Shown here one piece after another: positions 6,401-33,810 of a DNA stretch of 64,000 nt. This DNA comes from Candidatus Tanganyikabacteria bacterium (GTDB lineage: Bacteria > Cyanobacteriota > Sericytochromatia > S15B-MN24 > VGJW01): the NCBI GenBank assembly GCA_016867265.1, contig VGJW01000021.1:1-64000 (forward strand), given 5' to 3'. The number at the start of each line of letters is the position of its first letter. Within the stretch, counting starts at the first letter, position 1. The position numbers were made by a program, and so were the translations under genes. Under the pieces are notes generated by a model that made no database searches, had not been told where the DNA came from, and was given only the letters and a program-made list of their open reading frames with translations.

Positions 6401-6778
6401 CCGGTTGGGCAAGTCCGTTCCGGTCTTTAGGCCCTTGATGGCGTCCAGGTAGTAGATGGTGTCGGCCTTGGGCGTGAATCCGCCGGCAAACTGCAGGACA
6501 AAGGCGCCGTTGGTCTCCGTCAGGGTCGTGGCTACCGTGAAGCCGGTCGTGGCCTCGATCAAGGAGACCGTGGCCCGGATGGCGATCTCTGAACCAATGG
6601 AAGCTTGTGTCGTCCGACCGGCCCGAAAGGCGTCGAGGTCGACGCGGCCGCTCAGGCTCTGGACGCCCGCCGTAACCGGCACAGGAGCGGGAGCGACCGG
6701 TGCCGCCCCGATGCGGGCACAGGCCACGACGAGGCCCAGAAGCCACGCTTGGCCCAGTTTCGCCAAGGGCTTGCGCAT
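3410..6778 (-). CDS. TIG/NHL beta-propeller lipoprotein
   Basis: Protein of 1122 aa. ATG 6778 is preferred over an in-frame ATG eight codons upstream, because it has a GGGGGA box 7 nt before it and gives a clean signal peptide, MRKPLAKLGQAWLLGLVVAC, with lipobox VVAC. Residues about 45-210 hold the recurring module (ATVSLIEATTG, YYLDAIKGLK, IVRVRTLARYVG). Residues about 255-345 form one TIG domain with the typical VGSGF turn. From about 350 to the end there are many NHL-like blades (GNLFVANE, DGRAWVTDG, RALYVANMGGNN, GNLYVANNKGNS). It is a paralogue of the next gene downstream. A hairpin 86 nt upstream suggests that it may have its own promoter. The substrate is not known. Confidence 0.9.
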   Translation of the reverse strand: MRKPLAKLGQAWLLGLVVACARIGAAPVAPAPVPVTAGVQSLSGRVDLDAFRAGRTTQASIGSEIAIRATVSLIEATTGFTVATTLTETNGAFVLQFAGGFTPKADTIYYLDAIKGLKTGTDLPNRVGADIVRVRTLARYVGPYWQSISQNDALILNRTTTALTLLLSLRSQMAESASRRLDPELMINALSPEPGPAGSPDPFYNRYGEALLPDALVADTFARVSATLAQDRDPFMFIQLDPADPLGNTLYTPSVAFTVGALQPDTQFVDREIAIVGSGFAENPGDNLVTFRGLSGVSVPATVTSVSSDRSRLTVVVPGAAVSGEVTVTQGNRTLVTPPFYLALSSGHEAVDNLGNLFVANETFGTVVVVDPQGRIKPFAKGLDAPRALCLRNGRLYVTCAGARKGVVSLDAYNPGAGISNFGTAGSVPDPRGIAFDPDGRAWVTDGASGKLFRIDTALAQPLAIPLSGSALSQPRGATFGADRALYVANMGGNNVVRFEILNGGAAATGTPFMEGMTAPWGIAFDTLGNLYVANNKGNSVYRRDGNGKVSPFADMPSPGGLVTDRAGYVYAIDNTSNNVYRITPLGDSSIYASGFSSPTGIHKVGNDLFVLSETNNALVKVDVTTGELSTVARGFNKPFGLTYDGQGGRDRFYVTNMGNGTLSKVERSSGAATAVLKGIGGMSGISYAQGRLYGRSSRWIISYDVNNWAAPIEQQESVFIRNMGIARDKGLNSDNKDAFIIVTNDRRILKLSGDQATVGNSTAANKVVVLCDSNRDPNLTGPRDVAVDSSGIIWVCNPAAGTVTSYNPNGSPRPTVVTGLANPLGIVYDPTTNRVWVTENGAARVTSINPSTAVKDSSVATGGDAPRNLDIKDGTMFLAMDQGIGRIPAFASGGSYSRIYNGLGGYNDIAVDTDGGLLVLNGAGRKLDPTYTFDVAWYSNYHGPSFMWRGDGTVWITDPIRLARGSDGNWVYRFIGVTDWQSGPQLAGVDSNGNLYGNATSLCANDVTGRWSGSGIARQEWHYSAAAGNCWSPGVGAFAADAQGRFYILSHYGMRLVRVGTDGAGENFPGVDNSYRTWGMWSEPDGSALYQSVYSHHRVERYVPATRTREIMPFGLSAAEM

Positions 6779-6863
6779 CGCATCTTCCCCCATGGCCGTC
6801 ATGTACCACCAGCAGGCAGACTATCCGGCCCGGCTTACAAAAACGCTACAAGCGGGGGAGAAG

Positions 6864-18891: not shown

Positions 18892-18969
18892 CTCGACAAG
18901 GTCCGAGCATCCGGATTCTGGTCGCAAGTCCCCAAGGTCAAGGCCCGATAATGATCGGGTGAAGCTTGC

Positions 18970-19009
18970 TGTAACGGCCCGGTAACGGGACGGCAGCAAG
19001 GTGTTCATA
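18970..19009 (+). promoter_or_regulatory. 11-bp direct repeat plus -10 element (site A) before the lipase gene
   Basis: TGTAACG starts at 18970 and GGTAACG at 18981, exactly one 11-bp turn apart. After GTAAC of the second repeat there are 17 nt and then TTCATA (19004-19009). The second repeat thus sits where a -35 box would be. The same layout occurs at 20327 and 30187. Confidence 0.65.
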
Positions 19010-19065
19010 GGGATGCCAAGGGTCGTCCTGACGGGGGTTCAGGGTTGCAGGGACGCGGTTCGGGG

Positions 19066-20331
19066 ATGGCGCGGGGGCTTCGTGCCCTGGCGCTTCTGCC
19101 GTTGCTGGCCGGATGCGGTGGGCCCGCCTCCGTGCCCACCAGCCGGGTGACGACGGGCGCCGTCGTCTCGGCGGCGGTGCGCAGCACCGACACCGGATGC
19201 GCGATTACCCGCAAGACGAAGCTTGGCGACTGGGCCTTCATCGAACGCATGGACCATCGCGCCGCCGTCTTCCCCGACGAAGCGAGCCGCCCCAACGGTC
19301 GGCAACGCGAGGATTCGGTCGTCGAGGCCTTCGGGACGGACCGGCCGGCTTCCCGGCAGGTCTTGCTGCATGCGATGCCGGGCTGGAATCGCCCTGATGC
19401 CGTGCCTGTCCTGTTGGTTCATGGTGCGATTGCCGATGCCGAAAGCGCGTGGATGTCCCCGCATGGCAAGCAGGGCATGGCGCCTTGGCTCGCGGCCCGG
19501 GGCCGGGCGGTCTTCGCCGTCACTTTTGCCCACCGCCACGGGGACAACCTGCTGCAGGCGGAGCATGTCGCAGGAGCCATCGCCCGGATCCGTGAGCTGA
19601 CGGGCGCGCCCCGGGTCGATGTCGTGGCCCATTCCAAGGGCGTGGCCGCCGTCCGGGCCCATGCCAGCGGCGTGCGCATGCCATGGGGGCGGCCGTATGC
19701 CGGGGACATCCGAAAGCTGGTCCTGCTTGGCGGTCCCCTGCTGGGCATCGACTATACCTATCGGCATCCGTCGGTTCATCTCGGTCTGGTGCCCGAACTG
19801 GATCAACCCTTGCGCAACGCACCCACGGCGTGGGAGCGGATGGTGGTCTTCGGCCTTTGGAGGGACATCGGCGCGCTGTCTTTCATGACGGATCGCGGCA
19901 ACTTCTTTCCAGGCCAGGCGCAGCTCCTGCATCGCTGGGACAAGCAGTACCCGCTTTCGCCCTTGGAACCGGACGTGCACGCGACCTACCACGGTGGCAA
20001 GGGCCTGGTCAGCGAGAGCAGGGGCATCGAGGCCGCCATCGCTGCCGGTGGCAACTTCATCGAGCGCCTGCGGCGCCATCCATTGCCCAGGGGGCTGGAT
20101 GTCGCGGTGGCCGCAGGGAACAGGGCCACCATGACGACGGTGCTCAACGAGACCGATGGTCCTTCCGATGGCGTGGTGTTTGTCGCGTCGGCGACCCACA
20201 CCCAGGACCTGCTCAAGGCGGGCGCGGACTTGGTCACGCGTGACGAACTGCCGGTCAATCACATGGAGTTGCTGTACCATCCCCGTTCGCGGGCTTGGCT
20301 GGCTGACGTGCTGGAAAGGCCCGAGCTGTAA
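19066..20331 (+). CDS. Alpha/beta-hydrolase (triacylglycerol-lipase-like) lipoprotein
   Basis: Protein of 421 aa from ATG 19066. A TTG seven codons earlier is also open. ARGLRALALLPLLAGC is a good lipoprotein signal. The hydrolase core shows VLLVHGAIADAESAW (oxyanion-hole strand and HG, near residue 115), the nucleophile elbow VVAHSKGVAAVR with Ser190 (AHSKG instead of strict GxSxG), and a C-terminal NHMELLYH that probably carries the catalytic His near 398. The layout resembles lipase/esterase families acting on exported lipids or polyesters. Its promoter repeat is shared with the PHA synthase cluster, so a role in polyester or acyl-lipid turnover is plausible but unproven. Confidence 0.8.
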   Translation: MARGLRALALLPLLAGCGGPASVPTSRVTTGAVVSAAVRSTDTGCAITRKTKLGDWAFIERMDHRAAVFPDEASRPNGRQREDSVVEAFGTDRPASRQVLLHAMPGWNRPDAVPVLLVHGAIADAESAWMSPHGKQGMAPWLAARGRAVFAVTFAHRHGDNLLQAEHVAGAIARIRELTGAPRVDVVAHSKGVAAVRAHASGVRMPWGRPYAGDIRKLVLLGGPLLGIDYTYRHPSVHLGLVPELDQPLRNAPTAWERMVVFGLWRDIGALSFMTDRGNFFPGQAQLLHRWDKQYPLSPLEPDVHATYHGGKGLVSESRGIEAAIAAGGNFIERLRRHPLPRGLDVAVAAGNRATMTTVLNETDGPSDGVVFVASATHTQDLLKAGADLVTRDELPVNHMELLYHPRSRAWLADVLERPEL

Positions 20332-20366
20332 CGGGCATGTAACCGCGACCCGGCAAGCTGGATTCG
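20327..20366 (+). promoter_or_regulatory. 11-bp direct repeat plus -10 element (site B) before the PHA cluster
   Basis: TGTAACG at 20327 and TGTAACC at 20338, then exactly 17 nt after GTAAC to GATTCG (20361-20366). The first repeat overlaps the TAA stop of the lipase gene. Transcription would begin near 20373, about 37 nt before the start of the phasin-like gene. Confidence 0.65.
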
Positions 20367-20409
20367 TGGATGGCCAGGGAGCCATCCGGATCACCCGAGG
20401 ATCGATCGG

Positions 20410-20856
20410 ATGCCTCTTGCAAGCCCTTTGGAAAATTTGGCTGCCCAGCTGTTTCGCGAGGGCTACGCCTTTGCCGAGACGGTCGTCAGCAAGCCCCTTC
20501 AGGCAGCTCTGGGCACGGATGCAGCCGGCCAGATGCTGAGCGCGATGCGCGATACCTACGCCCTCGGCCGTCAGACGGGCGACGAGGCGCTCGAACAGGG
20601 TTGGCAGCGAATGAGGTTGGCAAGCCACGGCGAGTTGGCGCGTGTCGCCGGGTTGGTCGTGCAGGTTGATGGTCGGGCTGCCGACATCGAGGACCGTCTG
20701 GCTTCCCTCGAGGACCTCGTACGTGCGCAGCATGCGTTGGTTGTGCGTCAGGCGGAGCAACTCGAGGCGCTCATGCAGCTTGTCGGCCCGCGTGCCGACG
20801 CAGTTTCGGGTCCGGTGTCGCGTTCGGCCAGGCCGACTCGCAAGCCTGCCCCCTGA
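20410..20856 (+). CDS. Phasin-like / small PHA synthase partner (coiled coil)
   Basis: Protein of 148 aa, ATG with a CGAGG box 9-10 nt upstream. The N-terminal half is amphipathic helix (LENLAAQLFREGYAFAETVV). Residues about 75-125 form a heptad-rich coiled coil (GELARVAGLVVQVDGRAADI, LASLEDLVRAQHALVV), and the tail is Pro/Arg-rich. This pattern, helix followed by a DIEDRLASLE-type coiled coil, is typical of phasins and PhaE/PhaR-like subunits. It is far shorter than class III PhaE (about 350 aa). Two genes downstream is phaC, with a second small helical protein between them. A granule-associated or synthase-activating role is inferred from context and shape. Confidence 0.7.
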   Translation: MPLASPLENLAAQLFREGYAFAETVVSKPLQAALGTDAAGQMLSAMRDTYALGRQTGDEALEQGWQRMRLASHGELARVAGLVVQVDGRAADIEDRLASLEDLVRAQHALVVRQAEQLEALMQLVGPRADAVSGPVSRSARPTRKPAP

Positions 20857-20912
20857 TCCTGTTTCCCGAATCCTGGCGGCGTGCCGCCCATGCAAGCCTG
20901 AGGAGGGCCCCG

Positions 20913-21197
20913 ATGGAGAAGATGGTCGAGATGATGCAGCCTTGGATGAACGCGGTGGATCCCACCCGGCCGATGATTGCGATGATGCGCCACGGCCTGA
21001 AGACCGTGGAGATCGCCGGCACCCGCTGGGAAGAGGGCGCCCGGCAGATGCTGGACTTCTGGTCCGTGACCCGGGGGGATGCCGTCAAGGTCATGGGCGT
21101 CACGCTCGATACCGTGGCGACAGAGGCTCCGGCCTACGTCGGTCGCTTGGCCGAGGCGATGGCCGAGGTCGTGCCGACCCCCAATTCCGCCGCCTAG
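20913..21197 (+). CDS. Small helical protein of the PHA cluster (putative phasin)
   Basis: Protein of 94 aa preceded by GAGGAGG. It is entirely predicted helix and rich in Met, with an amphipathic N-terminus (MEKMVEMMQPWMNAVDPTRP) and a second helix ending before a short Pro/Asn tail. It lies 57 nt after the coiled-coil protein and 25 nt before phaC, in the same orientation, so it is very probably part of the PHA operon. It has no motif that I can assign to a named family. A small granule-surface protein or synthase partner is the best guess. Confidence 0.65.
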   Translation: MEKMVEMMQPWMNAVDPTRPMIAMMRHGLKTVEIAGTRWEEGARQMLDFWSVTRGDAVKVMGVTLDTVATEAPAYVGRLAEAMAEVVPTPNSAA

Positions 21198-21222
21198 GCT
21201 GACACTTCGAGGAACTGCAAAG

Positions 21223-22287
21223 ATGACGCGTCCTATGCTCCCGCGGGCCACCGAAGAAGGCCTCGGTCACGCCCTGAAAGCCCTCAAGGGCCTTCGTGCG
21301 GCCTTTCCGCTGCAGCCTGCCCGTGTGGGCCAGACGCCCAAGCAGGTGGTCTGGTCTCGCAACAAGGCGAAGCTGTACCGCTACGAGGGCCAGGGGGAGC
21401 GTCGGCACGCCACGCCCATCCTGTTCGTCTATGCCTTGATCAACAAGCCCTACATCCTGGATTTGCAGCCGGGCTCGAGTTTGATCGAGTATCTGGTCGA
21501 GCAAGGGCACGACGTCTACATGGTGGACTGGGGCGTGCCCGGGGAGGAGGACGGGGGGCTGACTCTGGCCGACCTCGTCACGGGGATGATGCCGTCGGCT
21601 GTCCGGGTCGCCCTGCGCTGCTCGGGTGTCGAACGCCTGACCATGTTCGGCTATTGCCAGGGCGGAACGCTGGCCGCGATGTATGCGGCCCTCGATGAGG
21701 GGCGGACGCTCGCCAATCTGGTCCTGCTGACGACGCCCATCGACTTCGCCGAGGCCGGTCTCTATTCGAATTGGCTCAATCCCGAGCACGCCGACATCGA
21801 CCGCTTGGCCGATAGCATGAAGCTGGTCCCGGCCGAGTTCATGGATTTCGGAGCCAAGATGCTCAAGCCCATCCAGAACTGGGTCTCGCCCTATGTGCGG
21901 CTGTTCGAGAAGCTGGACGACGAGGATTTCGTCGACAACTGGCGGGCGATGAACGGCTGGGTCTCGGACGGCATCCCCATGCCTGTCGAAATCTACAGGC
22001 AGTGGGCCAAGGACTTCTACCAGGGCAACAAGCTAGTCAAGGGCACGGTCATGCTGGGCGCCAAGCGGGTGGACCTCTCCCGGATCAGCTGTCCCCTTCT
22101 GGTCGTGCACGCGACGCTCGACCATATCGTGCCGACGTGCCAGTCCACCGTCGTCGCCGACCTCGTGTCCTCCGGGGACGTCACGGTGCTGCCCGTCAAG
22201 GCTGGCCACGTCGGCGTGGTCGTGGGCAAGGGGGCGCGCAAGCACTTCTTCCCGCAACTTGACGCGTGGCTGCAGGTCCGCTCCTGA
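21223..22287 (+). CDS. phaC: Class III-type poly(3-hydroxyalkanoate) synthase subunit PhaC
   Basis: Protein of 354 aa, the usual size of class III/IV PhaC (Allochromatium PhaC is about 355). It polymerises (R)-3-hydroxyacyl-CoA into granule polyester with release of CoA. The synthase lipase-like box GYCQGG has the nucleophile Cys145. The other triad residues are Asp300 (ATLDHIVP) and His329 (AGHVGVV), close to the 149/302/331 known for class III. ATG 21223 is preceded by GAGGA. Conserved surrounding motifs include LFVYALINKPYILDL and LVEQGHDVYMVDWG. Class III/IV enzymes need a PhaE or PhaR partner, and here only two short helical proteins precede it. Confidence 0.95.
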   Translation: MTRPMLPRATEEGLGHALKALKGLRAAFPLQPARVGQTPKQVVWSRNKAKLYRYEGQGERRHATPILFVYALINKPYILDLQPGSSLIEYLVEQGHDVYMVDWGVPGEEDGGLTLADLVTGMMPSAVRVALRCSGVERLTMFGYCQGGTLAAMYAALDEGRTLANLVLLTTPIDFAEAGLYSNWLNPEHADIDRLADSMKLVPAEFMDFGAKMLKPIQNWVSPYVRLFEKLDDEDFVDNWRAMNGWVSDGIPMPVEIYRQWAKDFYQGNKLVKGTVMLGAKRVDLSRISCPLLVVHATLDHIVPTCQSTVVADLVSSGDVTVLPVKAGHVGVVVGKGARKHFFPQLDAWLQVRS

Positions 22288-22328
22288 GCAGACTTGCGGC
22301 CTGAGTCGCCGCAGCCTAGCATGCCGGG

Positions 22329-23981
22329 GTGTCCGGCTTGTCGCATGGTGCGCTCGATCCCGAGCTCCGGGATGACGAGCCCTTCGATGACGGTGCCTTC
22401 GACCCGGTCGTAGCCGGATCTCCCGGCATCCTCAGCTCGAGCACGGTCCACGACCGCACGCAGTTCGAGGCCAACTTCGATTTCGACGTGCTGCCGCCTG
22501 GCCCCGGCATCCACAAGCGTTACGAGATCGACACGTGGTTCTTCGTGCCCCGCACGATGGGCATCCACGAGGGCACTTACGGGCGGGACCAGTTCTTTGC
22601 GGACCTGACCAACTACCTGCGTCTGAGGACGCCCGAGGACGTCTCCTTCGAACGACTGGATCCGGAACACTGGCACCTGCCCGCCCTCGATCGCTATCTG
22701 GCCGCCCATCTGGACACCCAGGCCCGACAGCGGATGGTGGGCCTGGTGCAGCAGGAGATCCGGCTCTTCGGTTGCCTGATGAACACCCAGTTCAAGCGTC
22801 TGCTTCGCGAGACGGCAAGCAGCGAGGCGCTGGCGATGATCGGTCGCCTGAAGTCGGTCCTCGATCGCTACCGCGCGGCTTATGTGCAGCGTGTCCTGAC
22901 GGAGCCCTTGCTCGTGGATCGGGAAGTGCGGCGGGCCCTGCGTCTGGTCGACGAGTACCTCTCCTATCGTTTCGAGGCCGTGGCGATTCGCTGCTTGCGG
23001 CCCATGGCCCGGGAGGGCGGTGCCCTGGCGACGGCTTTCCGGGCTTGGCTGGACGACGAGATTCGTCATCGGGCCGAGGCTGATCTCGTCCGGCTGGATG
23101 ATGACGCGACGGCACCGGAGCAAGCCGAGCGCCTCAACTACCGCCTTGGCCTGCTCAAGAAGTACGTCGCCGAGGTCCTGTTCCTGCGCGTGGCAAGCGT
23201 CAAGCGCGAACGTCTCTATCGCAACGTGATCGCCGCGATTGGCGCCGGCCTTGCGGCTGCGTGGGCGACCATGGCCGACATGCAGCGCCTCGCCATGATG
23301 AACGACCCTGACCTGGGATATCGTCTCGTTGTGGTGCTGGCCATCGGTGTCGGGGCCTACATCTTCAAGGACCGCATCAAGGAGCTGAGCCGCGAGTGGT
23401 TCAACGAACGCCTGAAGAAGTACCTGCCGGACTTCGACTTGCGGTTGACCTTTCCGCTTTTCGATGTCGACGGCACGATGCGCGAGATCGCCTTGGGGTC
23501 AGCCCGAGAGTTCATGCGCTTTCTGACGCGTGAGGCCCTATCCCCGGACGTCCTTTTCATGCGCGACCTGGGCAATCGGCCCGACCTCGATCCCGAGCGC
23601 CACGAGACGATCATCCACTACAGCAAGCGGCTCAACTTCGAGGGCTTGCTCGGGGATCATCCCCTGCATCAGGTCCGCTACATCCGGGACGTGATGCGGC
23701 TGGACGTTTCCGAGTTTCTGCCCAAGCTGTCCGACCCCCGCAAGACCCTGGGCTATTATCATCCCGAGCGTGGTCTGCAGACGCTCAAGGCCCCCCGCGT
23801 CTACCATGTCAACGTGGTTTTTCGATATGCCGTCAGCCACTTGGTCGGATCGAGGCGCATCCATCGGGAAGTGTCGTACGAGCGGGTTCGGATCGTCATG
23901 GACAAGGAGGGGATCCTGCGCATCGAGGCGGTGGTTCCGCGAGGCCAACTGGGCTATCTCGAGGGAGGCGTGACACCGTGA
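22329..23981 (+). CDS. Uncharacterised protein with two membrane helices
   Basis: Protein of 550 aa starting at GTG 22329 with a weak ribosome site. I do not recognise the family. Residues 1-290 are charged and helical (FDFDVLPPGPGIHKRYEID, LDRYLAAHLDTQARQRMVGL). Two hydrophobic helices lie at about 300-320 (IAAIGAGLAAAWATM) and 336-350 (LVVVLAIGVGAYIF). The C-terminal 200 residues look cytosolic and mixed alpha/beta. Its stop overlaps the start of the Na/Pi cotransporter by four bases (GTGA), so it is translated with the phosphate transporters, and it follows phaC by only 41 nt. It could link granule formation with phosphate uptake, which is inference from position only. Confidence 0.8.
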   Translation: MSGLSHGALDPELRDDEPFDDGAFDPVVAGSPGILSSSTVHDRTQFEANFDFDVLPPGPGIHKRYEIDTWFFVPRTMGIHEGTYGRDQFFADLTNYLRLRTPEDVSFERLDPEHWHLPALDRYLAAHLDTQARQRMVGLVQQEIRLFGCLMNTQFKRLLRETASSEALAMIGRLKSVLDRYRAAYVQRVLTEPLLVDREVRRALRLVDEYLSYRFEAVAIRCLRPMAREGGALATAFRAWLDDEIRHRAEADLVRLDDDATAPEQAERLNYRLGLLKKYVAEVLFLRVASVKRERLYRNVIAAIGAGLAAAWATMADMQRLAMMNDPDLGYRLVVVLAIGVGAYIFKDRIKELSREWFNERLKKYLPDFDLRLTFPLFDVDGTMREIALGSAREFMRFLTREALSPDVLFMRDLGNRPDLDPERHETIIHYSKRLNFEGLLGDHPLHQVRYIRDVMRLDVSEFLPKLSDPRKTLGYYHPERGLQTLKAPRVYHVNVVFRYAVSHLVGSRRIHREVSYERVRIVMDKEGILRIEAVVPRGQLGYLEGGVTP

Positions 23982-25621
23982 CGCCTTGGTTCCAGGCGCT
24001 CGGGGGACTGGGCCTGTTCCTGCTTTCGCTGCGCCTGCTCACGGGTGCGCTGGATCGGACCCTGTCGGATCGCTTCAAGTCGCTGTTCCGCCATCGCCTG
24101 CAGGCCCCCTGGGCCATGGGTGCCTTGGGGCTCGGCGCGACCGTCGTGCTGCAGGCCAGCGCCGTCACCATCGTCGCGACCATGGGCCTGTTGCAAACGG
24201 GCTGGCTTGGTCTCGAGCAGGCCTTCTTTGCCATGCTTGGCGCGACCGTGGGGACGACGCTCAAGGCCTGGGTCGCGGCAAGTGCCCATTCCGCCGTCGG
24301 CCTGGCGCTGGTCGGGCTGACCAGCCTCGGGCTGGTGGCCGCGCGCTCCCAACACCTGCGCGACCTGCTCGAGGCCGTGCTTGCCATCGGGCTGTTCTTC
24401 GCGGCCCTCGAGATGCTGGCGGGCGGTTCGGCCGCCCTGCTCGCAGAGGCGGACCTGCTGTCGGCGATGGGCAGGCTCGACGGCACGGGCCTGGGACCCC
24501 AAGTGCTGGCCGTGCTGCTCGGCTTCGGCATGACGGTGGCCATGCAGTCCTCGAGTTCGGTCGTCTTTCTGGCCATGGACCTTGCGGCGCGTGGCATCGT
24601 GGACCTGCCGGCCGGCGCGGCCTTGTTGCTGGGTGCCAATGTCGGCACGGCCGTCACGCCGCTGCTGGCTTCCGTCGAATATGAGGTCCGCGTGCGTCAG
24701 TTGGCGCTCAGCCATCTGCTGATCAAGGTTGCCGGAGTCTTCGGGGCCCTGATGATCTTTCCGTGGTTCCTCGGCATCGTGACGGCACCGGTACGTCACC
24801 TGTGGCCTGATGCAGCCATCGGTTGGCAGCTGGCGGCTTTCCATACGGGCTTCAATGTGGTCAACGCCCTCATCTGGGCGACGCTGGCGGCCTTTGCCAT
24901 GAAGGCCGTGCGCTGGCTCTGGCCCGACCCCGAGCTGGAGGGTGCGCAAGCCTTGCCGCTGGCCGTGCGCAGGATGCTCGTCGCTGCGCCGGACCTGGCG
25001 CTCGCTGAGGCGCGGCGGCTCCTTGGCGACCTCAGGCACATGGTCCGTGACGTCATCGATCCTTGCCTGGAGCGTATGTCTGGGCGTGTTCAGGATGCGC
25101 TGACGCGTCGCAGGGTCCGCTCCTTCCGCGCCTTCGAAGCCGTGCGCGAAAGCCTGCTCGACTTGCTGATGCAGTTGGGCCAGCGGGCGCGCAGCCCCCA
25201 TGTCCAGCTCGAGATTGGTATGATGCTTCGCGAGGCGGGCCAGTGCGGCATGCTGCACGACCTCGCCACGGATCTGGAGAGTCATCTGGTTACCGGTCTC
25301 ATGGTGGATCGTCACCCGGTTCCAGCCGCCTTGCAGGCCGAAGTCATCGCGCTTCGGTCCGAACTCGATGCCTTCTGGCTGGCCGTGCTCTTTCCGGGCC
25401 AAGGGCAGGCCCCCTTGCCCAATCTCGATGCGCGCTTCGATCGCATCGATCAGGAACTCGTGCAACACTTGCGTCTGGCCGACGGTCGCCATCATGGGAC
25501 CGACCTGTGGCTGCAGGACGCCGTGGCGCAGTTGCGTCAGATCTGCCTGTCCCTGCGTGGTCTTGTCCGGAGTGCGGATCCGGGTACCACCGATGCCCAT
25601 CCGCAAGGAGTATCTGCCTGA
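23978..25621 (+). CDS. nptA: Na/Pi cotransporter family protein with PhoU-like C-terminal domain
   Basis: Protein of 547 aa. GTG 23978 overlaps the preceding stop. Residues 1-310 form the Na/Pi cotransporter membrane domain with two inverted repeats. The QSSS-type motifs appear as LQASAVTIVATMGLL (residues about 60-75, first copy with Ser-to-Ala drift) and MQSSSSVVFLAM (about 190), and GANVGTAVTPLLAS follows. Residues about 330-530 are helical and resemble PhoU-like regulatory domains found in bacterial members. The role is sodium-driven inorganic phosphate import in the inner membrane. The next two genes, a DUF47 protein and a Pit transporter, overlap it by 1 and 8 bases in turn, so two different Pi importers are coupled. 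Confidence 0.9.
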   Translation: MTPWFQALGGLGLFLLSLRLLTGALDRTLSDRFKSLFRHRLQAPWAMGALGLGATVVLQASAVTIVATMGLLQTGWLGLEQAFFAMLGATVGTTLKAWVAASAHSAVGLALVGLTSLGLVAARSQHLRDLLEAVLAIGLFFAALEMLAGGSAALLAEADLLSAMGRLDGTGLGPQVLAVLLGFGMTVAMQSSSSVVFLAMDLAARGIVDLPAGAALLLGANVGTAVTPLLASVEYEVRVRQLALSHLLIKVAGVFGALMIFPWFLGIVTAPVRHLWPDAAIGWQLAAFHTGFNVVNALIWATLAAFAMKAVRWLWPDPELEGAQALPLAVRRMLVAAPDLALAEARRLLGDLRHMVRDVIDPCLERMSGRVQDALTRRRVRSFRAFEAVRESLLDLLMQLGQRARSPHVQLEIGMMLREAGQCGMLHDLATDLESHLVTGLMVDRHPVPAALQAEVIALRSELDAFWLAVLFPGQGQAPLPNLDARFDRIDQELVQHLRLADGRHHGTDLWLQDAVAQLRQICLSLRGLVRSADPGTTDAHPQGVSA

Positions 25622-26259
25622 TGATCGCTGCCCTGATGCCCCGCGAGCGGAAATTCTTCGACCTGCTCGAACGCTCCGCCCGCCAGATGCATCGTCGCGC
25701 CGAGTGCGTGGCCAAGTTGCTGCGCGAGCCCGATGATGCCCTCGTGGCCGAGATCAACGCCGAGCGGCGGGCGATGCACGGGGATCACACCGTGACGCAT
25801 CAGATCATCGACCAACTCAATGCCACATTCGTCACCCCCATCGATCGCGAGGATATCCACGCCCTGGCCTTCAAGCTCGACGACATCGTCAATACCATTC
25901 TTCTGCTCGGGGACCGCTTCGCGCTTTACGATGTCCGTCCCACGGGCGAGATGATCGAGTTGGTCGACTTGCTCGTGAGTTGCGCAAACGAGATCGTGGT
26001 GGGGCTGGAGAAGCTGCGCACGCCGCGGTTGATGCGCGAGATCCAGGCGCACTGCGACCACATCTACAAGCTCGCGATCGACGCCGATGATCTGATGCGA
26101 CGTGCCCTCTCGAGCCTCTACGGTGAGCCGGTGCTGCAGCCTGCGGACGTGGTGGACCTGCTCAAGCGCCGGGAGGTCCTCGATCTGATCAAGAAGTCGG
26201 TCGAGCGTTGTGAGGTGATTGGCGACCTGTTGCACGGAGTGGCGGTCAAGCATGCCTGA
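25621..26259 (+). CDS. DUF47 (PhoU-like) accessory protein of Pit
   Basis: Protein of 212 aa. ATG 25621 overlaps the previous TGA by one base and has AAGGAG 10 nt upstream. All-helical DUF47 features are visible: LMPRERKFFDLLERSARQMH at the N-terminus, the acidic HGDHTVTHQIIDQLNATFVTP region, and the metal-binding-type motif DREDIHALAFKLDDIVN with Asp/Glu/His clusters near residue 85. DUF47 proteins are PhoU homologues that are almost always encoded next to Pit transporters and modulate them. Here the stop overlaps the Pit start by 8 bases, in agreement with this role. Confidence 0.92.
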   Translation: MIAALMPRERKFFDLLERSARQMHRRAECVAKLLREPDDALVAEINAERRAMHGDHTVTHQIIDQLNATFVTPIDREDIHALAFKLDDIVNTILLLGDRFALYDVRPTGEMIELVDLLVSCANEIVVGLEKLRTPRLMREIQAHCDHIYKLAIDADDLMRRALSSLYGEPVLQPADVVDLLKRREVLDLIKKSVERCEVIGDLLHGVAVKHA

Positions 26260-27253
26260 AATGGCCTTGCTGATGCTGGGGCTGGTGGTCTTTCTGGCCC
26301 TGGCCTTCGATTTCATCAACGGTTTCCACGACACGGCCAACGCCATTGCGTGCTCGGTTTCCACGGGGGTGCTGACGCCCCGACTGGCCATCATCATGGC
26401 CGCGGTCATGAACCTTGCCGGAGCCATGTGGTCGACCAAAGTCGCAGCGACCATCGGCAAGGGCATCATCGACCCCTCGATGGCGACCTCGGCCCTCGTC
26501 ATCGCGGCGCTCGTCTCGGCCATCGGCTGGAACCTGCTGACGTGGTGGTGGGGGCTGCCCTCCAGCAGCAGCCATGCGCTCATTGGTGGAGTGATGGGGG
26601 CGGCTGTGGCCGGTCACGGGGTCGGGGCCCTCAGGACCGAGGGCATCTTGAAGATCCTCCAGTCGCTCATCGCCTCTCCCATCCTCGGGTTCATGCTGGC
26701 GCTTACGCTCATGGTCGGCCTGTTCTGGCTGTTCCGCGCCTGGATGCCGAGCGTGGTCAAGGCGACCTTCCGGCCCTTGCAGATCGCGGCGGCCGCTTTC
26801 ATCTCGTTCACCCACGGGGCCAACGACGCCCAGAAGAGTATGGGCATCATCCTGCTGGCGCTTATCGGGGCCCACCAATTGCAGAGCGGGGATGGCGTCC
26901 CCTTCTGGGTCAAGGTCTCCTGCGCGCTGGCCATGGCGCTGGGTACCTCCGTGGGTGGATGGAAGATCATCAAGACCATGGGGTCGCGCGTGACCCGGCT
27001 CGAGCCCATCAATGGCTTCGCGGCGGATCTTGCCTCGGCGTCGATCATCCTTTCCGCGACCCAACTGGGCCTGCCGGTCTCCACGACGCACGTCGCGGCC
27101 AGCTCCATCATGGGCGTTGGCTCGGCGCGTCGTGTAAGTGCCGTCCGCTGGGGCAAGGCCGGAGAGATGTTCGTGGCCTGGATCATCACGATTCCCATCA
27201 CCTCGGCCATCGCGGCCATTGTCTACCTGTTGGCGCGGACGCTGGTGGGCTGA
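26252..27253 (+). CDS. pit: Low-affinity inorganic phosphate transporter Pit
   Basis: Protein of 333 aa from ATG 26252, which overlaps the DUF47 gene. About ten membrane helices. It has both PiT family signatures: DFINGFHDTANAIACSV near residue 20 and FISFTHGANDAQKSMGII near 190, with PVSTTHVAASSIMGVG towards the C-terminus. It imports metal-phosphate by proton or sodium symport in the inner membrane. It is the last gene of the 22.3-27.3 kb overlapping block, 58 nt before the STAND/SARP regulator. Redundancy with the Na/Pi cotransporter in one operon suggests a cell that invests in Pi uptake, in line with ppk further along. Confidence 0.95.
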   Translation: MPEMALLMLGLVVFLALAFDFINGFHDTANAIACSVSTGVLTPRLAIIMAAVMNLAGAMWSTKVAATIGKGIIDPSMATSALVIAALVSAIGWNLLTWWWGLPSSSSHALIGGVMGAAVAGHGVGALRTEGILKILQSLIASPILGFMLALTLMVGLFWLFRAWMPSVVKATFRPLQIAAAAFISFTHGANDAQKSMGIILLALIGAHQLQSGDGVPFWVKVSCALAMALGTSVGGWKIIKTMGSRVTRLEPINGFAADLASASIILSATQLGLPVSTTHVAASSIMGVGSARRVSAVRWGKAGEMFVAWIITIPITSAIAAIVYLLARTLVG

Positions 27254-27311
27254 GGCCTTGGGCGCGGGTATCGGCCCTCAGGGACCTTGGCCGCGTCAGG
27301 TCCGGCCTTGT

Positions 27312-30191
27312 GTGAGCCGACCCCGTCTGCTGGAGCTGTTGCCGCGAGCCGAAGCCGGAGGCCGAGTCGAACTGGTCGCCGGTGCCGGGGCAGGCAAGAC
27401 GGTCTTGGCCGTATCCTGGGCAGCCGCGCAGGAACTGCCCGTCGTCTGGGTGACGTTGGTTGCCCGGCACGCCGATCCCCACGCCCTCGCCTCGGCGCTC
27501 TGCGGTGCTGTTCGTCGCGTCAGGCCCGGCCTCGATGCGGCCGCGCAGGAGCTCCTCGCACGGTCCGGTGGTGGCGGCGTGCATGGTCCGGAGGCCATGT
27601 GGACCCTGGCCGGAGATCTGCAGGGAGACGAGCCCTGGGCGTGGGTCCTCGATGGCATCGAGGTCCTGGAGGACGCCCGGGATGCGGCCCGAATCCTGGA
27701 TGAGCTTTTGCGCCATCTGCCCGAGACCCACCTCGTCGTGCTTGCCGGCAGGCTGGCCTTCACCGGGGCCGGTTGGCGCAAGGCTCGTCTCGAGGGTCGA
27801 ATGACGCATCTCGACGGGACGTCGCTGCGCTTTTCGTCGGACGACGTCCGGGATCTGGCGCGCTTGCTGGATCGCCCGGACGATGAGGCGGCCGTCGAGA
27901 GGGCCTTGCAGCGCGCCTCAGGATGGCCTCTGGGGGTTTCCCTCGTGCTGCGGGGCGACTCGGATCGCATGGCTCCGGACCTCGAGGGTTATCTCGTCGA
28001 CGAGGTCCTGGCCGGCTTGTCGTCCGAAACGGCGGCCTTGCTGGAAATCCTGGCGCCACTGACGCGCATTCCGCCATCCCTCGTCCTGGGCTTGGGTGCG
28101 CGTGCCACGGCATCCCGGATGACCGAATTGGTCCGGCAGGGCGTCTTGCTGCCGCCGGCGGGCGATGGAGGCTATGTCGTGCCCGAGGCTCTGCGGGAAG
28201 TCCTGCTGGCTCGCCTCGAGCGGCGCGGGGCGCGCGACGCCGCTTGCCAGGCCCTGATTGGCATGCTGTTGGACACGGGACTCGAGGAAGAGGCCTATCG
28301 CCTCGCCTGTGATCGGGACGATCGCGTGCTTGCGTTGACCCTGCTCGGGCGGCTGGCGTCGGGTTGGCTGGCCGAGGGCCTCTGGCACCGGACGCGTTGC
28401 GAGCTGGCCGTGTGGGACCGTCCCGGGGACGAGCCTTCCGTAACGATGTGCTGGCTCCGTGGCGAGCTTGCACGTGCGGAGGGTCGCTATCCGCAGGCGC
28501 TCGAGGCCTTGGTCGAGGCCGCCGGGTGCCCCGATGCCGGACCGCCCTGGCCAGCGCTCCTCCTCGTGGCGCGCGCGGGTGTCCATCTCGAGACGGTCGA
28601 GCCCCTGCTGGCGCAGGCTGCCCTGGACGAGGCCCAGCAACGTGCGGGGGAGGGACCGCTCGCCCGCAGCCTCGGGCTCGCCCGCGCCGAGAATGCCCTG
28701 AACCTCGGCCAACCGGTAGCGGCGGCTGCCTTGCTCGAACGTCTGTCGGGCGACGACGCCGAAGTTCGCCTCGTCCGTGCACGTCTGGCCCTGCGGACCG
28801 GTCGCCACGCCGAGGCCGCGATCCTGTTGCCGCTCGGGGCCGGCCTCTCGGGCAGGGGCGGTCATCGCAATCCCGAGTTGCTTCAGGCCCTGATCGCGTC
28901 GTGGGATGGTCGGCCTGACGAAGCGTTCGACCGCGCCGAGGCCGTGGCCGCGGCGGCTGAGCGGGCGGCTTCACCCGTGACCCGGGTGGTCGCCCTGACG
29001 CGTGCCGGTCATGCCCTTGCGGCCCTGAGGCGCCCTCGGGAGGCACGCAACCGCTACACGGAGGCACTGCGGCTCGTCACGCGCCTGGCCGTGCCGCGCC
29101 TGGGTGCGGAGGCCGAACTTGGCCTGGGTCTGCTTGAAGCATCCTCGTCAGGTGCCCTCGAACGCCTGGAGCGTGCCGCGCTGCTGGGTCGGGAGACCGG
29201 CGATGTCTGGTTCGAGGCGCTTGCGGCCACGGCGTTGGCGCTGGCTGCACCCGGGGCTGGACGACGGGAGCATGGCTTGCGCCTCGCCGAAGCCGTCGGA
29301 GATCCATGGTTGGCCGGACTGCCCGAAGCTGGCGGTGCCGGGTGGCTGCGCGGAAGGCCGGCCGGGGAACCGGCAGGTGCGCCCGGCAGGGAAGCGGCCC
29401 CTGCCTTGCTGGTCCGGACCTTGGGAGGCCTTGCGGTGTTCCGCGATGGGATGCCGATACCTCCGAGGGCGTGGACGCGGGACAAGGCACGGCAACTGCT
29501 GGCCGTCCTCGCGGCTCATCCGGGGGAAGTCCTGCCCAAGTCGAGGCTGATCGACATGCTGTGGCCGGAACTGGATCCCGAACAGGCGGACGGGACATTC
29601 CGCGTCGTTCTCAATGCCTTGCAGCGCATCCTCGAGCCGGATCGTTCCCCGAAGGCCGAACCTCGCTTCGTGGTTCGCGAGGGGCCGGGCTACCGGCTGG
29701 CCGGTCCACCTGATGTCGCGATCGACCTCACGGCGCTGGGGCGTCTGCTCGACCAAGTGCGTGCGATGCGCGATGACGATCCGGCCCTTTTGCCCCTGTT
29801 GGCACGCCTGCCGGCCCATGCCCCCGGGGTCTTCCTGCCTGAAATGGTCCTCGATGATCCGTGGTGCGACCGCCTGCGCGATCGGGTCGAGGCCGCTTTG
29901 AATGCCGCCGGCCTGCGCTGGGCGAGGCTTTCGTGGCAGGCGGGCGCGCTGGACCTGGCGGCAGCTGCCGCCGAGTTCCTCGTAGGGCGGGATCCTTCCC
30001 TCGAAGAGGCGTGGCGGCTGTGGATGGCCGTCCAGGCGCGCGTCGGTGAACGGTCGGCAGCCCTGCGCACCTGGGATCGTTGCGTCACGGCCTTGGACCG
30101 GGAATTGGACCAGGCTCCCTCCGACGCGACCGAGGCCATGGCGACCGCGATTCGAGGAGGGCGCCAGTTGCCCGATCCTTGGTCGGCGTAA
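27312..30191 (+). CDS. STAND-ATPase transcriptional activator with C-terminal SARP (wHTH-BTAD) domain
   Basis: Protein of 959 aa from GTG 27312. Walker A is VAGAGAGKTVLA with Lys29, and the AAA/STAND sensor follows (EPWAWVLDGIEVLEDA as Walker B-like). Residues about 310-680 are helical repeats rich in Ala/Leu/Arg like the MalT-type solenoid. Residues about 698-800 form an OmpR-type winged helix (LLVRTLGGLAVFRDGMPIPP, KARQLLAVLAAHPGEVLPKS, FVVREGPGYRLA), and about 800-950 a BTAD domain. In classical SARPs the winged helix is N-terminal, but here it follows the STAND module. The gene lies directly upstream of the ligase/FabG operon, and an 11-bp direct repeat of the kind this DNA-binding fold recognises overlaps its stop. 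It is the candidate regulator of the three repeat-bearing promoters. Confidence 0.88.
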   Translation: MSRPRLLELLPRAEAGGRVELVAGAGAGKTVLAVSWAAAQELPVVWVTLVARHADPHALASALCGAVRRVRPGLDAAAQELLARSGGGGVHGPEAMWTLAGDLQGDEPWAWVLDGIEVLEDARDAARILDELLRHLPETHLVVLAGRLAFTGAGWRKARLEGRMTHLDGTSLRFSSDDVRDLARLLDRPDDEAAVERALQRASGWPLGVSLVLRGDSDRMAPDLEGYLVDEVLAGLSSETAALLEILAPLTRIPPSLVLGLGARATASRMTELVRQGVLLPPAGDGGYVVPEALREVLLARLERRGARDAACQALIGMLLDTGLEEEAYRLACDRDDRVLALTLLGRLASGWLAEGLWHRTRCELAVWDRPGDEPSVTMCWLRGELARAEGRYPQALEALVEAAGCPDAGPPWPALLLVARAGVHLETVEPLLAQAALDEAQQRAGEGPLARSLGLARAENALNLGQPVAAAALLERLSGDDAEVRLVRARLALRTGRHAEAAILLPLGAGLSGRGGHRNPELLQALIASWDGRPDEAFDRAEAVAAAAERAASPVTRVVALTRAGHALAALRRPREARNRYTEALRLVTRLAVPRLGAEAELGLGLLEASSSGALERLERAALLGRETGDVWFEALAATALALAAPGAGRREHGLRLAEAVGDPWLAGLPEAGGAGWLRGRPAGEPAGAPGREAAPALLVRTLGGLAVFRDGMPIPPRAWTRDKARQLLAVLAAHPGEVLPKSRLIDMLWPELDPEQADGTFRVVLNALQRILEPDRSPKAEPRFVVREGPGYRLAGPPDVAIDLTALGRLLDQVRAMRDDDPALLPLLARLPAHAPGVFLPEMVLDDPWCDRLRDRVEAALNAAGLRWARLSWQAGALDLAAAAAEFLVGRDPSLEEAWRLWMAVQARVGERSAALRTWDRCVTALDRELDQAPSDATEAMATAIRGGRQLPDPWSA

Positions 30192-30226
30192 CGAACATGT
30201 AACGCCTTGCCTGGAAGGTCTATTCA
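30187..30226 (+). promoter_or_regulatory. 11-bp direct repeat plus -10 element (site C) before the acyl-CoA ligase operon
   Basis: CGTAACG at 30187 and TGTAACG at 30198, then exactly 17 nt after GTAAC to TATTCA (30221-30226). It overlaps the TAA stop of the SARP-type regulator and places transcription start about 10 nt before the GGGAGG ribosome site of the ligase gene. Confidence 0.68.
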
Positions 30227-30242
30227 AAGGGAGGACCGACCG

Positions 30243-31787
30243 ATGGCACTGGGACGCTGGCTCGATCGCTGGGGCACGTATGCGCCGGACAGGACGGCGC
30301 TTGTGGATGCCCACTCCGGACGCCGCTGGACCTATGAGGCGCTGGCCTTCCGGGTGCGCAAGCTGGCCGGGGCCATCGCGACCCGCTGGGGCATCGGCCC
30401 CGGGGATCGGGTCGCCGTGCTGGCGCACAACACGCCCGAGACGTTGGAACTGCTTTTCGCCTGTGCCAGGCTTGGAGCGATCCTGGTGCCCATCAACTTC
30501 CGCCTGGCCTCGGCCGAGGTCGCCTATGTGCTTGGCGATGCCGAGCCCAAGGTGCTGTTCTATGGTCCCGAGTGCCGCGAGTTGGCGTGGCAGGCCCTGG
30601 CCCTGCAGCCGGGGGCGCAGCCCGTACCGTTCGTCGCCGACCGTGAAGAGGAGGCCTATGCCGACGTGCTGGCATCGGGCCGGGAGGGCGCCTGCCGCGA
30701 GGTTGACCTCGACGATCCCCTGCTGATCCTCTACACGTCCGGGACGACAGGTCGTCCCAAGGGTGCCATCCTGACGCATGGCACGCTCACGTCGAATGCC
30801 GTCAACACCCAGGTGGGCTGGGGCCTGCGTCACGAGGACGTGACGCTGACCCACACGCCGTTCTTCCACACGGGCGGCCTGAATGTCCTGACGACGCCGC
30901 TGTTTCACATCGGCGGCACCGTCGTCCTCCAGCGATCCTTCGAGGCTGCCGAGGCACTTGATCTGGTGGCACGCGAGCGCTGCACCGTGCTGTTCGCCGT
31001 CCCGACGATGTTCCAGATGATGGCCGAGGCAGACGCCTTTGCCGATGCTGACCTGTCGAGTGTCCGCTTCTTCATCACCGGTGGGGCGCCTTGCCCCGTG
31101 CCGTTGATTCTCCTCTACGACACCCGGGGAATCGTCTTCAAGCAGGGCTACGGACTGACGGAGGCCGGTCCTAACTGCTTCACGCTCGATGCTCGCGATG
31201 CGGTCCGCAAGGCGGGTACCGTCGGCTTTCCGAACATGCATGTCGAGGTCCGGATCGTGGATGACGAGGGTCGCGACGTGGCGCGAGGCGATATCGGGGA
31301 ATTGCTGATTCGCGGTCCCCACGTGTTTCCGGGCTATTGGCGCAACGAGGCCGCGACCCGTGCGGCGCTGCGCGAGGGGTGGCTGCACACGGGCGATCTC
31401 GTCTGCCAGGACGACGAAGGCTACACGCGTATCGTCGATCGCAAGAAGGACATGTATATCTCGGGCGGGGAGAACGTCTATCCCGCCGAGGTCGAGCGCG
31501 TCTTGCTCAACCATCCGGCTGTCCGCGAGGTGGCCGTGGTGGGAGTCCCCGATGCCAAGTGGGGTGAGGTCGGGCGCGCGTACGTCGCCTTTGAACCGGA
31601 GGCCGCGGTCACGGCGGCGGATCTCGATGCCTGGCTCTCCGGGCAACTGGCTCGCTACAAGACGCCGCGCAGCTATGTCTTTCCTGCGGCCCTGCCCCGG
31701 ACGGCCACGGGCAAGGTCCATAAGCCGGGCCTTGTCCGGCTCGACGCCGACGTGCACACCCTCGAGCGGGCCCGGACCCGCGCCTGA
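30243..31787 (+). CDS. Acyl-CoA synthetase (AMP-forming, ANL superfamily)
   Basis: Protein of 514 aa. ATG 30243 is chosen for the GGGAGG box just upstream. It activates a carboxylic acid to the acyl-adenylate and then acyl-CoA. Motifs are in order: the P-loop-like YTSGTTGRPKGAILTH near residue 170, GYGLTEAGPN near 312, the hinge HTGDLVCQDDEGYTRIVDRKKDMYIS-type region near 385-410, and the catalytic lysine motif PRTATGKVHKP near 493. The substrate is probably a medium- or long-chain fatty acid, but this cannot be read from the sequence. It heads an operon with a FabG-like reductase and an MFS carrier, so it may feed 3-hydroxyacyl-CoA to PHA synthesis or activate imported acids. Confidence 0.92.
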   Translation: MALGRWLDRWGTYAPDRTALVDAHSGRRWTYEALAFRVRKLAGAIATRWGIGPGDRVAVLAHNTPETLELLFACARLGAILVPINFRLASAEVAYVLGDAEPKVLFYGPECRELAWQALALQPGAQPVPFVADREEEAYADVLASGREGACREVDLDDPLLILYTSGTTGRPKGAILTHGTLTSNAVNTQVGWGLRHEDVTLTHTPFFHTGGLNVLTTPLFHIGGTVVLQRSFEAAEALDLVARERCTVLFAVPTMFQMMAEADAFADADLSSVRFFITGGAPCPVPLILLYDTRGIVFKQGYGLTEAGPNCFTLDARDAVRKAGTVGFPNMHVEVRIVDDEGRDVARGDIGELLIRGPHVFPGYWRNEAATRAALREGWLHTGDLVCQDDEGYTRIVDRKKDMYISGGENVYPAEVERVLLNHPAVREVAVVGVPDAKWGEVGRAYVAFEPEAAVTAADLDAWLSGQLARYKTPRSYVFPAALPRTATGKVHKPGLVRLDADVHTLERARTRA

Positions 31788-31813: not shown

Positions 31814-32560
31814 ATGTCCCCATTGTCCTCCCAAGTCGCCCTCGTCACGGGTGGCGCCCGCGGCATCGGTCGCGCGACCGTGGCGGCACTCGCCGGTGCC
31901 GGCGCCCGCGTGTTCCTGTGGGACCGCGATGCGGCTGCTGTCGATGAGGCCGTCTCGCTGCTTGCCGGTCAGGGGCTTCCCGTCTCGGGGATGGCTGTCG
32001 ACGTGACGGATCGCGAGGCCGTCCAACTTGCGGTCCAGCGCCTTGTCGAAGCCCACGGCAGACTGGACGTCATCGTCAACAATGCCGGGATCACGATGGA
32101 CGCCCGGCTCGAGAAGATGACAGAGGCGCAGTTCGACACCGTGCTCGACGTCAACCTAAAGGGTGTCTTCAATGTTACCCAGGCCGCCGTGGCGCCGATG
32201 ATTGCCGCAGGCAACGGCGGTGTCATCCTGAATGCCTCGAGCATCGTCGGGCGCTTCGGCAACTTCGGCCAGACGAACTACGCGGCCACCAAGGCAGGCG
32301 TCATCGCCATGACCCAGACGTGGGCCCGTGAGTTGGCCCGCTATAACATCCGTGTCAACGCCGTTGCACCCGGGTTCGTGCTCACGGACATGACGGGCAA
32401 GATGCCGGAGAAGGTCCTGGGCATGATGGCCGAGAAGACGCCGCTGGGGCGGTTGGGTTCCCCCGATGACATCGCGGCAGCCTACCTCTTCCTGGCGGGT
32501 CCCGGGGCGACCTTCATCACCGGCCAGGTGTTGGGCGTGGACGGAGGCTTGGTCCTGTGA
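31814..32560 (+). CDS. fabG: FabG/PhaB-type 3-oxoacyl-(ACP/CoA) reductase (SDR)
   Basis: Protein of 248 aa with an AAGGA box upstream. Classical SDR features: TGGARGIGRAT nucleotide-binding loop at residues 13-23, NNAGITMD near 92, the catalytic Ser of NASSIVGRFGNFG near 139, YAATK near 155, and GQVLGVDGGLVL at the end. It reduces 3-oxoacyl-ACP or acetoacetyl-CoA to the (R)-3-hydroxy product with NADPH. Its stop overlaps the MFS gene start by 4 bases, and it lies 26 nt after an acyl-CoA ligase. Because the operon shares its promoter repeat with phaC, the PhaB role (supplying monomers for PHA) is attractive, but sequence alone does not separate PhaB from FabG. Confidence 0.92.
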   Translation: MSPLSSQVALVTGGARGIGRATVAALAGAGARVFLWDRDAAAVDEAVSLLAGQGLPVSGMAVDVTDREAVQLAVQRLVEAHGRLDVIVNNAGITMDARLEKMTEAQFDTVLDVNLKGVFNVTQAAVAPMIAAGNGGVILNASSIVGRFGNFGQTNYAATKAGVIAMTQTWARELARYNIRVNAVAPGFVLTDMTGKMPEKVLGMMAEKTPLGRLGSPDDIAAAYLFLAGPGATFITGQVLGVDGGLVL

Positions 32561-33810
32561 CGACAGCCGTCGCGTCGACGACACCTCGGGCGCAGGGTGC
32601 TGCCGGCCAGACCCGATGGCTGGTCGAGGCCCTGATGTTCCTGACTTATGCGGCCTTCGGGCTGTCCTGGGTCGCCACCACGCCCCTGATGGCCGATCTC
32701 AAGGTCGCCTATGCGTTGACGGATGCACAGTTGGGCCTGCTCTCCACTGCTGTTTCCATCGGCAAGGTGGTGGCGCCCCTGATGACGGCTTGGCTAGCGT
32801 TGCGGGTCGGCGTCGCCCGCGCGATCGGTATCGGCTCGATACTCATTTGCGTCTGTGCCCTGACGCCTTTCACGACGAACTTCCAAGGCTTTCTCGCGAC
32901 GCGGTTCGTCTTCGGCCTGGGCGGGGCGATGGTCGTCACGCTGCTGTCGCCCATGGTCATGCAGTGGTTCGGCCAGGCCGAACGCGCGCTCGTCAACTCG
33001 CTCAACAACGTCGCTGTCAACACCGGCATCACCGTGACCCTGTTCGCGACGGTGCCTGTCTCCGGCATGTTGGGTTGGCGCCGCACCCTGATGGTCTATG
33101 CGGCCATCTCGCTGGCCCTTTGCATGCTCTGGTGGCTGTTCGGCAAGGACGCACCGACAGAAGAGGCCTCGTCGATGGCAACGGGCGCGGAACAGGCCGA
33201 TGCTTCGGCGTCCGGCTATGCCGAGGTCTGGAAGCGGACCGAGACCTGGCTGGTGGCCCTGGCCTTCGCGGGTCCGCTGGCTCTTTACCTGTCGCTGAAC
33301 ACCTGGCTTCCCCGCCATCTTATGGAGACGGCCCATCTCGCCAAGGCAACGGCCAGTCAGTACACGGGCCTCTTCAACCTCGTCGGCATCCCGACGGCGC
33401 TCGTCATGGGCATCCTCGTCCAGCGCGCGGGCTTGAGGCGGCCCTTCATCATCGGAGCCGGCGTCGTCATGGGCCTGTCGGCACTGGGCCTGGTGTTCGG
33501 CGGCGGACCGGTCTTCTGGTGGCCAGCCGCCATCCTGCTCGGGATCTCGTTCTTTACGTATACAGGACCGCTCTTCACACTGCCCATGGAGCTCGAGGGC
33601 TTCACGCCGCGGCACGTGACGCTGCTGATGGGGACGGTCTTCAGCTTCGCCTACACCGTATCCTCGTTCGCCCCGGTCGCCGTCGGTTACCTGCGGGACC
33701 TGACGGGCTCCTTCCTGCCCGGCCTCGGCATGTGGTGCATATTCTCGTTCGTGCTCGCCGGAGCCGGCACCCTGCTGCCCGAGACCGGGCCCCGGGCGAG
33801 GCGTTCCTGA
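32557..33810 (+). CDS. MFS transporter
   Basis: Protein of 417 aa beginning at GTG 32557 and overlapping the reductase stop (GTGA). It has twelve predicted membrane helices in two halves with a hydrophilic central loop near residues 195-220 (EEASSMATGAEQADASASGY). The A-loop-like region between helices 2 and 3 is weak. The protein resembles organic-anion or nitrate/cyanate-type MFS carriers in general form (ATRFVFGLGGAMVVTLLSPM), but no specific substrate signature is clear. Co-translation with an acyl-CoA ligase and a reductase suggests uptake or export of an organic acid. Confidence 0.88.
   Translation: MTTAVASTTPRAQGAAGQTRWLVEALMFLTYAAFGLSWVATTPLMADLKVAYALTDAQLGLLSTAVSIGKVVAPLMTAWLALRVGVARAIGIGSILICVCALTPFTTNFQGFLATRFVFGLGGAMVVTLLSPMVMQWFGQAERALVNSLNNVAVNTGITVTLFATVPVSGMLGWRRTLMVYAAISLALCMLWWLFGKDAPTEEASSMATGAEQADASASGYAEVWKRTETWLVALAFAGPLALYLSLNTWLPRHLMETAHLAKATASQYTGLFNLVGIPTALVMGILVQRAGLRRPFIIGAGVVMGLSALGLVFGGGPVFWWPAAILLGISFFTYTGPLFTLPMELEGFTPRHVTLLMGTVFSFAYTVSSFAPVAVGYLRDLTGSFLPGLGMWCIFSFVLAGAGTLLPETGPRARRS

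Follow-up and report, generated by a model that had tools for sequence, protein, structure and literature searches.

The SARP-type regulator encoded in a polyhydroxyalkanoate (PHA) gene cluster probably binds three direct-repeat boxes in that cluster and thereby switches on the PHA genes, a reading to which we assign a probability of roughly 0.85. The whole stretch of DNA analysed (the window) is 64,000 nucleotides long and comes from a genome of the phylum Cyanobacteriota, whose class is most probably Sericytochromatia; psbA is present in six photosynthetic members of the phylum and absent from the window genome and from the members of its class and order that were tested. The earlier note had proposed a shared activator box and a PHA/acyl regulon, and both are strongly supported by phylogenetic footprinting and by the co-occurrence of the box with SARP orthologs.

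GTAAC pairs exactly 11 bp apart are found at 18971/18982, 20328/20339 and 30188/30199, all on the plus strand, as the earlier note had reported, and its statement that the window holds no other pair with this spacing is true on both strands; one further close direct pair has a spacing of 8. Box 1 (18969..18990, plus strand) consists of the two 11-bp direct repeats CTGTAACGGCC and CGGTAACGGGA and precedes the gene of a lipase-like (PhaZ7-like) lipoprotein. Box 2 (20326..20347, plus strand; CTGTAACGGGC and ATGTAACCGCG) has a matching site before phaR/phaC in 8/8 SARP-bearing relatives, and box 3 (30186..30207, plus strand; GCGTAACGAAC and ATGTAACGCCT) is matched in relatives by sites in front of the gene for the acyl-CoA ligase or for FabG. 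A consensus of TGTAACG had been suggested; the box is indeed shared, and its predicted consensus is better given as CTGTAACGNNN repeated, so that the putative promoter layout is CTGTAACGNNN twice, 6 nt and then the -10. The lipase stop codon TAA (20329-20331) sits within the first GTAAC of box 2 and the SARP stop codon TAA (30189-30191) within that of box 3; the TAA stop of the SARP gene in relative G009 (L122 14234-14236) is also located within the first GTAAC of a box.

The three copies of GTAAC-N6-GTAAC in the window compare with 0.02 expected, a number never attained in 100 shuffles (both strands counted). The whole assembly (2,847,710 bases, 98.2% complete) contains the same three copies only, all inside 11.2 kb; three random places would share so short a stretch with a probability of about 5e-5, and the reversed control pattern is absent from the assembly altogether. 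A position weight matrix trained on relatives only, with the window left out, recovers all three sites, with scores of 16.3 (box 1), 26.0 (box 2) and 20.4 (box 3). The relaxed pattern TGTNAC performed no better than its control in the window genome (24 versus 21 matches). A weak candidate fourth box, TGTAGCGTTTTTGTAAG, with the -10 TAGTCT, lies on the minus strand (6818..6850) before the ORF of a 1130-aa NHL/Vgb-repeat protein (3410-6802), and scores 17.9 versus a maximum of 17.0 over 40 shuffled windows.

Eight relatives of the same order (G001, G002 and G004 to G009) carry the box before the phaR/phasin-like gene and phaC. In G002 and G004 to G009 it also stands between the end of the SARP gene and the gene of the acyl-CoA ligase or of FabG, in G001 it precedes the ligase gene, and in G008 it is additionally found before the lipase gene and the MFS gene. 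Outside the cluster, the box precedes a PHB depolymerase gene in G001 and, with an imperfect -10, in G002 and G004; an acetyl-CoA acetyltransferase (thiolase) gene, with one half-site mismatch, and a pyrophosphatase gene in G005; the isocitrate lyase gene in G008; the gene of an E22-type MetX-like esterase in G006 and G009; and a short-chain dehydrogenase gene, with an imperfect -10, in G006. When up to two mismatches were allowed, the box with its -10 gave 40 matches across 10 genomes, versus 6 for the reversed control. A box with a perfect -10 was also observed in G005 (L139 604-940, minus strand) before a permease-like ORF that is broken in the assembly and is possibly a hydroxybutyrate or gluconate-type permease.

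The relatives also correct the position of the -10. TTCATA, GATTCG and TATTCA had been proposed as -10 hexamers 17 nt past the second GTAAC; they are present at that distance but are dissimilar. The same-order relatives provide 36 exact sites; in 21 of them TANNNT begins at offset 10, no other offset has more than one case and 17 nt has none, which rules out the 17-nt hexamers as -10s. The window's own hexamers 10 nt past the second GTAAC are CAAGGT, CAAGCT and GAAGGT (shared SAAGST), which keep A2 and T6 of a -10 and lack T1 in all three cases, making them weak -10s. Following the 10-nt rule of the relatives, the predicted -10 elements on the plus strand are CAAGGT for promoter 1 (18997..19002, predicted start near 19009), CAAGCT for promoter 2 (20354..20359, predicted start near 20366) and GAAGGT for promoter 3 (30214..30219, predicted start near 30226). 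In genus g3, the -10 of the box after the SARP gene is TAGGCT in G002 and CAAGCT in G004; CAAGCT can therefore replace the better -10 of a sister species. With the 17-nt reading, transcription from site 3 would begin at about 30233 and thus within the ribosome site GGGAGG (about 30228-30233), whereas with the 10-nt reading it begins at about 30226, ahead of GGGAGG, which stays in the message.

With the -10 placed at -12 to -7, the box spans approximately -40 to -19. It had been thought that the second repeat replaces the -35 element; instead, the upstream repeat overlaps the -35 region. SARP-dependent promoters have direct repeats with an 11-bp period, the 3' repeat lying about 8 bp from the -10 (PMC10936776), and the sites described here show the same 11-bp period and a -10 that begins 8 bp after the heptamer GTAACNN (21/36 sites).

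The window's genes downstream of boxes 1 to 3 are on the plus strand. The first (19066..20331; alternative TTG start at 19045) encodes a lipase-class lipoprotein (Pfam Lipase_2, 9.5e-6) that weakly resembles the PHA depolymerase PhaZ7 (E=0.0015 against the PhaZ7 model, far under the cut-off; 5e-6 for the homolog in G008). It is followed by a gene for a small PhaR/phasin-like PHA synthase subunit (20410..20856); the family-model search gave no direct match for this protein, which was assigned via homologs that stand before phaC and match PhaR_Bmeg (G006, 1.7e-19; G007, 3.5e-13). A small ORF, whose 94-aa translation matched no family in the family scan, lies at 20913..21197 between the phaR-like gene and phaC (21223..22287), which encodes a class III PHA synthase (TIGR01836, 365.8 bits versus a cut-off of 365.3). 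Operon 3 begins with an acyl-CoA ligase gene (30243..31787; Pfam AMP-binding) and continues with genes for a FabG-type reductase, assigned by family match, and an MFS transporter (31814..33810), homologs of which occur at 59% identity within the relatives' clusters.

In most relatives the SARP gene directly follows phaC, whereas in the window 5 kb separate the two. This block (22329..27253) encodes a 550-aa protein without assigned function, a Na/Pi symporter, a DUF47/PhoU-like protein and a PiT phosphate transporter, and no homologs were found between phaC and SARP in the relatives compared. A phosphate-uptake block at this place was seen only in the window genome among those compared, and it possibly ties phosphate uptake to storage.

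The regulator (27249..30191, plus strand; the longest ORF starts at 27138) contains a MalT-like nucleotide-binding/TPR region followed by a C-terminal SARP module, namely an OmpR-type DNA-binding domain (Trans_reg_C, 783-854) and BTAD (905-1006), both above cut-off. Large SARPs are arranged as SARP, nucleotide-binding and TPR regions, whereas the order here is nucleotide-binding, TPR, DNA-binding and BTAD; it is therefore a SARP-module regulator and not a standard large SARP. The last 281 aa (29346-30188) gave an AlphaFold2 model of the SARP fold with a pLDDT of 90, whose best PDB matches are 8k60 and 8hvr (AfsR initiation complexes) and 2ff4 and 2fez (EmbR). The predicted recognition helix region (29583..29633, plus strand) corresponds to residues 80-96 of this fragment, QADGTFRVVLNALQRIL, within the model helix 78-96, and reads ADGTFRVALNALNK in most orthologs. 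Identity in the recognition helix is 87% among nine orthologs and 27% to paralogs, compared with 50% among orthologs for the whole domain.

SARP orthologs (42-46% identity in the DNA-binding half) occur in exactly the nine genomes that have the box in the cluster. An exact box with TANNNT was detected in 8/9 genomes with a SARP ortholog versus 0/9 other genomes of the class, the ninth being the window genome with its weak -10s; the reversed control matched once over all 18 genomes. The association of box and SARP ortholog has a Fisher value of 0.0004, which is not corrected for kinship, and the co-occurrence partly reflects shared ancestry because all genomes with a SARP ortholog belong to one order. 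A single-protein scan of the genome contigs for SARP returned distant proteins only. Further STAND/TPR proteins with C-terminal SARP modules were noticed in G000 (C9:8600-11608 and C26:14264-15586), and many in G001 and G008, with up to 13 matches per genome; this regulator family is apparently expanded in the lineage.

The closest known counterpart is AfsR. Both proteins are about 1000 aa long and combine an OmpR-type DNA-binding and BTAD module with nucleotide-binding and TPR regions, but the SARP module is N-terminal in AfsR and C-terminal here. The afs box consists of two 11-bp repeats from -40 to -19, of which each protomer touches the first 8 of 11 bp, and it is followed by the poor -10 CACTGT (PMC10936776); the boxes described here likewise occupy about -40 to -19 with two direct repeats of 11 bp, each having 8 readable and 3 free bases, and are followed by a poor -10. 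The repeat itself differs, being CGTT(T/C)ATCGNN for AfsR and CTGTAACGNNN here. In the alignment, the backbone contacts W74, R87 and K95 of AfsR correspond to W, R and K/R, whereas V and A stand in place of the base readers T88 and R92, a change that appears consistent with a new target sequence; since the base-reading residues differ, AfsR gives no basis for deriving which sequence is read here. The targets of AfsR are antibiotic genes in Streptomyces, while those predicted here are storage-polymer genes in a host of the cyanobacterial phylum. MalT/LAL regulators share with the regulator an N-terminal MalT-like nucleotide-binding region, a TPR region and a C-terminal DNA-binding output, which is a LuxR-type helix-turn-helix in MalT/LAL proteins and a SARP module here. 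In function, the predicted control of PHA storage is shared with Rre37 (an OmpR-type regulator of Synechocystis), PhaR, PhaQ and SigE; SARPs are absent from the regulators named in a review of PHA control (PMC9049629), and a SARP review places the SARP module at the N-terminus and describes antibiotic targets (PMC10972967).

A SARP or a PhoB winged helix had been suggested as the binder. The footprint, the co-occurrence, the conservation of the recognition helix and the AfsR-like fold and register lead us to infer that it is the SARP, and they weaken the case for PhoB. If the boxes were Pho boxes, a PhoB-type response regulator would bind the TGTAAC repeats and turn on the PHA genes under phosphate limitation. 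The promoter geometry is indeed shared, as PhoB-type promoters such as that of E. coli phoA have 11-bp direct repeats that replace the -35 and lie about 10 nt before the -10. The window genome also encodes a PhoB-like regulator on contig C19 (272 bits versus a cut-off of 296), phosphate transporters lie within the window operon, and PhoP also binds AfsR sites in Streptomyces (PMC10972967), so that competition is possible. However, the Pho box reads TGTCAT/TGTCAC rather than TGTAAC, the relatives' clusters are without the phosphate block, and no annotated site in the relatives lies before a gene for phosphate uptake, the targets being PHA genes. A Pho regulon is not apparent either, as no PstB (TIGR00972) match above the curated cut-off was obtained in the 10 genomes G000-G009, where PiT and Na/Pi symporters may account for phosphate uptake. 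Moreover, the distribution of the sites follows that of the SARP ortholog with its recognition helix, and we consider binding by PhoB improbable.

We likewise give little probability to the idea that the boxes are bound by a different protein, either a further OmpR-type response regulator or an orphan regulator resembling GlnR, while the linked SARP regulates something else. The window genome has about six full-length OmpR-type regulators, the box geometry suits PhoB/OmpR-type regulators too, and the GlnR box of S. venezuelae, GTnAC-n6-GTnAC, has nearly the same sequence (PMC10704036). GlnR, however, controls the nitrogen regulon of actinomycetes, whereas no nitrogen genes are among the targets here, and linkage, co-occurrence and helix conservation favour the SARP. 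CenR was rejected as a binder, its motif being TGA-N8-TGA and the genome not alphaproteobacterial, with psbA in its phylum. Finally, a short word might have been repeated by chance in promoter-rich DNA, given that each half comprises only 5 bases and that two of the first GTAACs contain TAA stop codons. This is extremely improbable at an expectation of 0.02 in the window and with no copies elsewhere in the genome, and it is already refuted by the relatives, which conserve the sites and the fixed -10 spacing.

Taken together, the data point to a circuit in which the SARP acts as the activator. Two SARP protomers would lie next to each other on the pair of 11-bp repeats, from about -40 to -19, covering the region of the would-be -35, and would recruit the main RNA polymerase to the weak -10 exactly 10 nt downstream. 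The genes for making, using and feeding PHA would consequently be switched on, and the SARP, whose gene follows promoter 2 on the same strand, may amplify itself. The nucleotide-binding/TPR half presumably senses a metabolic signal.

The SARP module, the MalT-like sensor half and the 11-bp repeats are already known as parts; what is new is that the SARP module is placed C-terminally, together with the sequence of the box, the predicted PHA regulon and the lineage, and we found no described regulon for this lineage, most probably Sericytochromatia, in the open-access literature searched. A wider hypothesis, which we offer tentatively and hold somewhat less likely than its opposite, is that this SARP with MalT-like sensing and a C-terminal output is devoted to carbon storage as its master activator, in a lineage of the cyanobacterial phylum that does not photosynthesise. 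Its reach would extend from the synthesis and depolymerisation of PHA to acyl activation and the glyoxylate bypass, its ligand would be an acyl or polymer-derived compound, and in the window organism phosphate uptake would have been drawn into the same operon as well. In Streptomyces, SARPs are known for switching antibiotic clusters; the SARP described here appears to govern a regulon of primary metabolism, and to do so outside Actinobacteria. The box, the -10 spacing, the recognition helix and the targets are all legible in the sequence and would provide a DNA code, open to testing, for a SARP whose parts are reshuffled. For this lineage near the root of Cyanobacteria, which is most probably Sericytochromatia, it would be the first transcription circuit.
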